NCBI GenBank assembly: GCA_003280225.1
Contig: QCFO01000001.1
Location: 1 to 64,000, forward strand
DNA: 64,000 nucleotides
Direction: 5' to 3'
Origin: Prochlorococcus sp. AG-363-K07
GTDB taxonomy: Bacteria; Cyanobacteriota; Cyanobacteriia; PCC-6307; Cyanobiaceae
Shown here: one piece after another, positions 56,733 through 58,560 of the stretch
Layout of the letters: each line of letters begins with the position of its first letter
Position numbering within the stretch: the first letter of the stretch is position 1
The notes under the pieces: model-generated
Told to the model about the DNA's origin: nothing
Database searches by the model: none
What the model saw: only the letters and a program-made list of their open reading frames with translations
Translations under genes and position numbers: made by a program

Positions 56733-57209
56733 TCAGGCATCTTTTTCTTTTAATCGCCACGGTATAGAAATCACAGCATCCAACTGCTGCCAAAGCTTTC
56801 TTTCAAAAGCAACCATTTCTAACAACTCAACCTTCAGCAATGCCTTCTCGGCTTGATCCAGAGTGACTGGCAAAGAACTGCTGATAGGCAAAATTAATAT
56901 TTGAGACTCAGCAGGATCAGCCAAAATCTGAAGAGACAGGCTATCTAGAGTTCTTTCAAAAAACATCCTACGCATCCGACTAGTTAAGGGATCGCCCAAA
57001 GAGTTCGCGAAAAGTTCAAGACTCTCACGTTCTCCCGAAAGACCACAATTCAACGAAAGCCAAATCAAAAATTTCACCCAACTATCTACAGTCCAAAGCG
57101 GATGGAAGCTTCCACGGTTTCTATGTACGAGCTCCATCACAGCAAAATCAAAAAGTTTTGCTTGAACCAAAGTTTGATTTGAATTTTCCATAAGAGACAT
57201 CATCGCCAA
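56733..57209 (-). CDS. Conserved-looking unknown protein (158 aa)
   Basis: A mostly helical protein: LFDFAVMELVHRNRGSFHPL, WTVDSWVKFLIWLSLNCGLS, MRRMFFERTLDSLSLQILAD, then AFERKLWQQLDAVISIPWRL. Several ATGs are possible at the start (57209, 57203, 57200, 57191). No motif I can name. It lies upstream of valS with 47 bp between and is divergent from the acidic gene at 57249. Length, composition and clean start context support a real gene. Confidence 0.65.
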   Translation of the reverse strand: MAMMSLMENSNQTLVQAKLFDFAVMELVHRNRGSFHPLWTVDSWVKFLIWLSLNCGLSGERESLELFANSLGDPLTSRMRRMFFERTLDSLSLQILADPAESQILILPISSSLPVTLDQAEKALLKVELLEMVAFERKLWQQLDAVISIPWRLKEKDA

Positions 57210-57248: not shown

Positions 57249-57506
57249 ATGGCCATGGATCTAAACGACCCGGATCTAGAATTTTCTGACTTGGTATATG
57301 CCTACCAAACTTGGGTAATGGCTGTAATCAATGATGAAAAGCTAGACAGCGAAGACAAACTGTTAACAGAAGACATCACAGATGATGCCCTCAATGCAAT
57401 GCGATTTCTCCCAGGAGAAGTAACAAGCGCTATTGAGACTTGTTTAGCCCGTGTATATGACGTGGATGAAGATGAATTGGCTTCTCTACTCTTTCCAGAA
57501 GAATGA
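57249..57506 (+). CDS. Small acidic unknown protein (85 aa)
   Basis: A very acidic protein: MAMDLNDPDLEFSDLVYAYQ, TWVMAVINDEKLDSEDKLLT, EDITDDALNAMRFLPGEVTS and an EEDELASL-type end (VDEDELASLLFPEE). I recall small cyanobacterial proteins of this kind but no function. Alternative ATG at 57255. It is divergent from the 158-residue gene. The following 453 bp to tRNA-Val contain no intact gene (see the relic entry). Confidence 0.68.
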   Translation: MAMDLNDPDLEFSDLVYAYQTWVMAVINDEKLDSEDKLLTEDITDDALNAMRFLPGEVTSAIETCLARVYDVDEDELASLLFPEE

Positions 57507-57665
57507 TTTGAGAACCAAAAGAGTTGCTAAGTCTTGATAAAGCCTTGTAGCGAAAGGTTAATTAAGGCCCAGAGTTCAATTTGAAAGAAGTGAACATTAT
57601 TTCTTAGATTATTTACAACCTCAACCCTGCTCCACATACACAATATTCGGCTCTCTCAGATGGAC

Positions 57666-57875
57666 TTAAGAGAAAACATCCCCCATTAGATCTCCATGAT
57701 AGTCAAGATCCAATCCTTGCAATAGCTGCAACTGTTCATGTGGTACAAAAACAGTCACCCCATCAGTGTATGCGACTAGAACATGCTTAGCTATCCAGAT
57801 TGCAAGCGGAAATGAAGCCAACCTTCACATATGTATCATTCAACTAATGTGCATAATTTCTGGTGTTAGTGCAAA
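57666..57875 (-). pseudogene. Relic of an IscA/HesB-like gene, frameshifted
   Basis: Three pieces read in order on the minus strand but in different frames. ALTPEIMHIS stop (57872-57843) is first. CEGWLHFRLQSG stop (57829-57791) is second. IAKHVLVAYTDGVTVFVPHE then QLQLLQGLDLDYHGDLMGDVFS stop (57794-57666) is third. The last piece matches the HesB/IscA fold end, where G-V-x-V-x-V-D-x-x-S-x-x-x-L-x-G-x-x-L-D-Y-x-x-x-L-M-G-G-G-F is usual. No cysteine follows because the frame stops after DVFS. The whole looks like a decayed member of a short IscA-like family seen in marine cyanobacteria. A working short gene from TTG in piece three is possible but unlikely. Confidence 0.5.
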
Positions 57876-57959
57876 AGCCATTTATCTTCCTAGCACTGAT
57901 TCTGCTTCAGACTAACGCTCAAACTTAATCGATTGTTCATGGAGACTACAAAGTCGAAA

Positions 57960-58031
<72 letters not shown>

Positions 58032-58089
58032 AATCATCCACATTCTGCACTACCACGTTCCCGTTACACTAAAAGAGATTCAAAGAGCA

Positions 58090-58560
58090 ATGGCGTCAGG
58101 TAGAGATCATGATAAATCAATCCTACGATGGAGCCTACCTTTTGCGCTGATTTTGAGTCTATGTTCTGGTTTTAATTCCGGATTCATCGGTGGATTTTCC
58201 TTCCTCTTAGGAGGCCTATGGCTTTCTCCCGATCTAGACACAACATCGAATTCCCTAAAGCGCTGGGGACTATTAAGAGTTATATGGTTTCCATATCGAA
58301 AACTTGTTCGCCATCGATCATTAGCCTCACACAGCCCAATCATTGGTACAGCATTAAGACTTTGCTACTTATTGATCTGGATCATTTGTATAATTTATCT
58401 GTTTAAAGTAGTACAAATAAATAGTCCTTTTCTGATAGCAAATTACTTAAAAAACTCGCTTCAAGACAACCCAAAAGCTTTGATATCCATCTTAGTGGGC
58501 TTAGAAGCAAGTTCATGGCTTCACCTAATTCAAGATGGAGATCCCTTCCCTAAAGTCTGA
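58090..58560 (+). CDS. DUF2227 putative metal-binding membrane protein
   Basis: 156 residues of the cyanobacterial DUF2227 family. It has two hydrophobic segments near the start (LPFALILSLCSGFNSGFIGG) and LLGGLWLSPDLDTTSNSLKR with the D-x-D pair. RKLVRHRSLASHSPIIGTAL has the histidine pattern, then a membrane segment, and a final WLHLIQDGDP. Conserved Asp and His positions suggest metal binding and the family resembles YdjM-type membrane hydrolases. Activity unproven. Confidence 0.85.
   Translation: MASGRDHDKSILRWSLPFALILSLCSGFNSGFIGGFSFLLGGLWLSPDLDTTSNSLKRWGLLRVIWFPYRKLVRHRSLASHSPIIGTALRLCYLLIWIICIIYLFKVVQINSPFLIANYLKNSLQDNPKALISILVGLEASSWLHLIQDGDPFPKV

Follow-up and report, generated by a model that had tools for sequence, protein, structure and literature searches.

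A decayed IscA-like A-type carrier gene beside tRNA-Val in Prochlorococcus sp. AG-363-K07

Introduction

In Prochlorococcus sp. AG-363-K07, the interval that follows the tRNA-Val gene is, with high confidence, a unitary pseudogene: the relic of a gene for an IscA-like A-type carrier that was inactivated in this species, has since drifted, and was presumably dispensable beside SufA. To judge from its sequence and those of its relatives, this gene was not SufA but an IscA-like paralogue from a divergent Cyanobiaceae clade, and the species appears to have lost this paralogue and kept SufA. The window analysed here is the whole stretch of 64,000 nucleotides at positions 1 to 64,000 of contig QCFO01000001.1, with a G+C content of 41%, and belongs to a draft assembly of 1.74 Mb in 42 contigs that is 93.7% complete (G000). 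The organism is presumably of low-light habit.

Gene order across the site runs valS (minus strand), a 158-residue gene (minus), an acidic 85-residue gene (plus), the decayed interval, tRNA-Val (UAC; minus), a DUF2227 gene (plus), and mazG (plus), where valS and mazG are what we take these neighbours to be from their sequences. The tRNA-Val gene (57959–58032, minus) lies directly upstream of the pseudogene on the same strand and serves as one syntenic anchor. The second is the conserved 85-residue gene (57249–57506, plus), which is 81–87% identical in four congeners and 80–88% identical across the 80 named loci kept, and which matches nothing in Pfam or NCBIfam at E ≤ 1. The DUF2227 gene (58090–58560, plus) is the intact neighbour past tRNA-Val. 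The 158-residue gene (56733–57209), between valS and the 85-residue gene, adjoins the latter in most named loci and has zero Pfam or NCBIfam matches at E ≤ 1.

The remnant and its lesions

The remnant occupies 57613–57940 on the minus strand, 328 bases from the relic of an ATG at 57940 to that of a stop codon after LRL at 57613, as delineated by DNA alignment with congeners, which exposes deletions and nonsense, and by profile matches. An earlier note on this DNA had proposed a decayed IscA/HesB-like gene at 57666–57875, composed of three minus-strand pieces in shifting frames. All three pieces are present, with stops between them: TPEIMH and a 51-residue open frame (57666–57821 with its stop, ending GVTVFVPHEQLQLLQGLDLDYHGDLMGDVFS) share one minus-strand frame, and GWLHFRLQSG lies in another, the segment EGWLHFR (57806–57826, minus) being the frame-shifted counterpart of EGWLHIR in intact genes. 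The extent first proposed is real but too short, as it missed the true C-terminal relic, CVCGAGLRL followed by a stop (57613–57642, minus), whose counterpart in the congener G002 is CACGAGFRLL. This genuine end, ..GGCFLLSPSERAEYCVCGAGLRL, sits in a third frame, and the terminal GDVFS that had been taken for the HesB/IscA-like end is read out of frame.

Searched alone by profile, the 51-residue frame is too weak for a decision, matching NCBIfam TIGR00049 at E = 0.0017 with 18.5 bits (cut-off 58.8), and a Pfam search returned just two weak matches, both to unrelated families (E = 0.17 and 0.31). A profile of 12 intact homologues recognises the remnant at E = 6.7e-15 over 57672–57917, with four stops read through, and again over a second stretch at 57616–57687 (E = 0.0055). 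Frameshift-aware alignment of the remnant with the intact protein of a congener scores 223, against a maximum of 34.7 in 20 base shuffles of the interval and 402–526, with zero frameshifts and zero stops, at 14 intact sites that served as positive controls. At the DNA level, the interval aligns with the G002 gene along its full length at 61% identity, flank included.

Compared with G002, the remnant shows five deletions (1, 4, 1, 1, and 1 nt) and no insertions, and indels in G003, G006, and G008 number zero. Two alignments in which the window remnant is the only broken copy set against four intact genes both give this pattern; one joint global alignment merges two of the deletions and yields 1, 5, 1, and 1 nt. 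At least one nonsense codon is also present, LGR-stop at 57882–57893 (minus), where intact congeners read LGRQ. Mismatch between the remnant and the four intact genes at codon positions 1, 2, and 3 is 0.31–0.39, 0.19–0.21, and 0.50–0.55, compared with 0.13–0.20, 0.05–0.11, and 0.42–0.54 among the intact genes themselves. Change at the first two positions is approximately doubled or more and the third is little altered, which is the pattern expected once constraint has been lifted. The remnant is thus both lesioned and released from constraint, and three hallmarks of a unitary pseudogene are found together: an intact orthologue at the same site in relatives, frame-breaking lesions that the orthologues lack, and relaxed constraint.

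The tRNA-Val site in relatives

The earlier note had pointed to the interval between the 85-residue gene and tRNA-Val in related genomes as the place to seek an intact orthologue, and one is found there in three congeners, G002, G003 (AG-363-P01), and G006 (AG-463-F15). In 15 other genomes (three congeners and 12 further ones), chosen for having a homologue and tRNA-Val in one locus, an open frame with a homologue directly follows tRNA-Val on the same strand. Site homologues are of the type ..EGWLHIRLQPG..ARTDGVTLYAP..LNYYGDLSGGGFLISPPEG..CACGAGF, and intact site copies span 111–123 codons from ATG (17 copies, from named genomes). The 85-residue gene led to 80 named loci, and tRNA-Val lies within about 1.1 kb in 41 of them. 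An intact gene separates the two anchors in 32 of these 41, all titled Prochlorococcus and including G003 and G006; four loci are broken or empty (AG-404-B19, AG-463-P14, AG-409-O23, and AG-435-K18); and in five, titled Cyanobium, Synechococcus, Synechococcaceae, or Cyanobacteria, the anchors stand nearly side by side with no gene between.

Across the family, 391 of 400 genomes surveyed match the homologue profile at E ≤ 0.001, a count whose weak matches include SufA, since in the window genome, G459, and G460 they are located where PF01521 finds SufA. Five genomes at least 90% complete have no match better than 1e-20: the window genome, G284, G447, G454, and G457. A PF01521 match is kept in G447 and G454. 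G284 and G457 were set aside as cases of loss, as the homologue is absent but no PF01521 match is present either, which points to missing sequence. The presence of the divergent IscA-like gene is near universal in the family, and the window genome is one of the few good assemblies without it.

Among eight genomes of the genus searched, the window genome included, five retain both flanking genes: the site gene is intact in G002, G003, and G006 and broken in the window and in AG-404-B19 (G005). The site was not found in G001, G004, and G007, which are 57%, 86%, and 64% complete. The AG-404-B19 copy has gained 6 nt at one point and 1 nt at another, has lost 58 nt, and bears one more indel that takes different forms in different alignments; none of these is seen in the window remnant, one of whose deletions, near base 158, falls within the 58-nt gap. 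Because three of the five readable genus genomes are intact and the other broken one bears different lesions, the loss belongs to the window species, not to the genus, and the AG-404-B19 copy was broken separately. The earlier proposal of a recent loss in this lineage accordingly stands as to loss, but the lineage narrows to the species and "recent" goes unproven: with several deletions, and with divergence raised where codons are constrained, a very recent event looks unlikely.

A FastTree phylogeny was built from five neighbouring genes, concatenated, for 35 ingroup and two outgroup taxa. The six ingroup taxa whose site gene is not intact fall at six separate places in it, in a tree that is weakly supported at several nodes (down to 0.06) and whose rooting rests on two taxa. 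On firmer ground, the lesion sets of the window, AG-404-B19, AG-409-O23, and AG-463-P14 differ from one another. The AG-463-P14 remnant is the faintest, with a score of 43 (shuffle maximum 34.7, from the window's interval) and a profile E-value of 0.057. A joint alignment makes the window and AG-409-O23 coincide at one 1-nt gap; aligned alone, AG-409-O23 shows a 4-nt deletion there, and with the placement uncertain, the two were not taken as one event. The other two of the six taxa, AG-435-K18 and G045, show no remnant at all. Just 117 nt occupy the AG-435-K18 site (L149, 3253–3369), and G045 has 481 nt of unrecognisable DNA (L154, 3042–3522), which was considered as a remnant and, at a score of 28, within the shuffle range, counts only as a site with no gene. 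These two sites may mark later or complete stages of loss, or else a different history. Among the papers listed in a literature search, no title or abstract opening describes decay of this gene.

Nature of the lost protein

Against solved structures, the 12-homologue profile places IscA (1x0g) first at E = 6.9e-11. An intact orthologue, modelled with AlphaFold2 (mean pLDDT 86.1), is predicted to adopt the IscA fold, with the same structure as its best fold match (E = 2.5e-7, TM 0.70). Pfam PF01521 matches 2 of the 12 intact homologues at E ≤ 0.01 and NCBIfam TIGR00049 all 12 at that threshold; for the single member with bits shown the score is 32 (cut-off 58.8). The curated cut-off is not reached where a score was seen, which indicates a divergent relative of the A-type carriers and not a curated member. 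We further constructed a midpoint-rooted tree from the Cyanobiaceae homologues and the PF01521 proteins encoded by 14 genomes that do not belong to Cyanobiaceae. Of the 30 sequences fetched for its PF01521 set, the window genome's own included, 28 were used; L167 and L180, both missed by the motif filter, were dropped, and L188 is partly masked. In this tree the homologues from Cyanobiaceae group on a single long branch separate from SufA, and the analysis does not settle where that branch attaches among those of IscA type; clade names follow sequence motifs. The alternatives that the earlier note had left side by side, an iron-sulfur-related or an IscA-derived gene, can accordingly be sharpened to an IscA-like one, a divergent paralogue distinct from the intact SufA.

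In IscA, three cysteines hold a [2Fe-2S] cluster or iron. All three (C...C-x-C) are kept in the intact congeners G002, G003, and G006, which, with the predicted IscA fold, argues for a probable carrier of clusters or iron; working alongside SufA, the main carrier, the intact protein probably supplied a few targets. Across the clade, cysteines were counted in 52 distinct homologous ORFs, with the adjacent L004, L007, and L016 treated as site copies. Among tRNA-Val-site proteins, 17 of 38 have all three cysteines and 21 are without at least one (the second in 16, the first in two, both in three); six further proteins away from the site have all three.

Site proteins of one Prochlorococcus group have lost the second cysteine, C-x-C becoming S-x-C (L099, L102, L108, L113, L122–L125, L127, L128, L130, L135, L136, L140, L142, L143, L145, and L151), and the first is absent as well in L135, L142, and L143. 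Locus G+C in this group is 0.34–0.36 in the four read (L102, L123, L127, and L142).

Replacement, error, or a residual short gene

A second kind of IscA-like gene, here called copy B, is relocated, in differing neighbourhoods, to the middle of eight loci (L003, L005, L010, L014, L021, L023, L028, and L029). Its proteins mostly start MACN, and in all eight the third is the only ligand cysteine present. A phage origin for copy B was considered and rejected, since 50,697 phage records yielded no match to one copy-B protein at E ≤ 1e-3. Eight genomes carry copy B, G017 and G023 among them; of the six inspected at the tRNA-Val site, a remnant persists in three: clear in AG-409-O23 (G018), faint in AG-463-P14 (G061), and confined to the C-terminal residues 81–112 in G047. 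Nothing is detectable at the site in G033, G064, and G071. The genomes with remnants suggest displacement of the tRNA-Val copy by copy B. In G072, two full-length IscA-like homologues coexist (C7:50728–51063 and C18:100–429), possibly as an intermediate of replacement.

The window genome could likewise have undergone replacement and not loss, its tRNA-Val copy decaying after copy B entered elsewhere, in the 6% left unassembled. The three site remnants in copy-B genomes and the pair of homologues in G072 favour such a course, and the missing part of an assembly 93.7% complete in 42 contigs could hold a functional second copy. However, a profile that includes a copy-B sequence detects no copy B in the window genome at E ≤ 1, and in G005, G045, and AG-435-K18, all three incomplete, the site gene is likewise not intact and no second copy is seen. 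We regard replacement as unlikely for this genome, though it is the least unlikely of the alternatives. That the gene is intact and was misread or misassembled, as might happen in a draft of 42 contigs, is exceedingly improbable given several separate frame-breaking deletions within 328 bases and a nonsense codon. The neighbours valS, the 85-residue gene, DUF2227, and mazG are open at plausible full length, which makes a general sequencing fault unlikely, and errors would not raise change chiefly at codon positions 1 and 2, where constraint acts. Hardly more credible is the persistence of the 51-residue C-terminal frame as a functional short gene: the frame is open, with a TTG start, but compared with intact orthologues it ends in the wrong frame, it includes neither the first-cysteine region nor the C-x-C motif, and all other matches listed for it sit in open frames of 111–307 residues. 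Of the two outcomes that the earlier note had set against its own reading, neither is seen: an IscA-like match exists, at E = 6.7e-15 and with intact orthologues at the same site in three congeners and 32 named loci (two of the congeners among them), and the 51-residue frame does not recur as a conserved small gene. A unitary pseudogene remains the preferred reading.

Significance and comparison with known systems

The window genome encodes one intact PF01521 protein, on another contig, which groups with SufA-type proteins in the tree; apart from it, a profile search of the 93.7% complete genome finds no second homologue at E ≤ 1. A review describes Synechocystis IscA (slr1565/IscA2) as binding a [2Fe-2S] cluster together with the HEAT protein IaiH, and its loss as being without visible phenotype, and adds that iscA loss in cyanobacteria reportedly disturbs iron sensing (PMC7058544). 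Loss of a HEAT-repeat partner along with the carrier was considered and set aside, as PF13646 proteins are present in all 13 genomes searched, the window genome included, with frames of about 270–281 residues there and in several others. One of these proteins may be IaiH.

An intact SufA and the tolerance of iscA loss in model cyanobacteria would leave the paralogue so dispensable that drift and deletion bias could remove it. On a likely course of this kind, SufA would do the essential work, the paralogue would become too weakly selected to be maintained, an initial frameshift or nonsense mutation would become fixed, and further deletions would then build up; the lesions themselves are observed, their order and cause inferred. 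For Prochlorococcus, it has been argued that genes can be lost by this route, first becoming pseudogenes and then being deleted under drift (PMC10837832).

Gene decay is expected in Prochlorococcus, and the remnant represents ordinary genome erosion with one instructive pattern. At a fixed site, one small Fe-S-related gene is found among near relatives intact, depleted of cysteines, variously broken, and apparently replaced, a range of states that amounts to a natural experiment on the dispensability of a second A-type carrier. A broader reading, which we offer tentatively and consider rather doubtful, is that the second A-type carrier of Prochlorococcus is leaving Fe-S biology: ligands erode, a cysteine-poor relocated copy has displaced the site copy in several lineages, and some, probably deep and low-light ones, drop the gene, such that the survivors may be cluster-free and DsrR-like or heading for loss. 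As a caution, an "IscA" annotation in Prochlorococcus may not signify an Fe-S carrier.

Among known systems, the deletion-biased erosion of genome-reduced Prochlorococcus, in which dispensable genes become pseudogenes and are then deleted, as described for the group (PMC10837832), provides the general setting of which the present remnant is one particular case. Cyanobacterial IscA (1x0g) and the Cyanobiaceae homologues are alike in having a tryptophan shortly after the first cysteine and a C-x-C near the end. The Cyanobiaceae clade differs in having PPEG-like residues where NPNA precedes C-x-C in IscA, and in the absence of cysteines from many of its members, the likeness being one of profile and fold. 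SufA, the main cyanobacterial A-type carrier, has superfamily and fold in common with the lost gene and belongs to a separate clade. DsrR of Allochromatium (2k4z) likewise has its fold in common with the intact orthologue (Foldseek rank 9, E = 1.4e-3), and is reportedly an IscA-like protein without Fe-S binding (Grimm et al. 2010). It thus offers a precedent for an IscA fold without ligands, to be compared with the cysteine-poor copies described here, although DsrR belongs to sulfur oxidisers.
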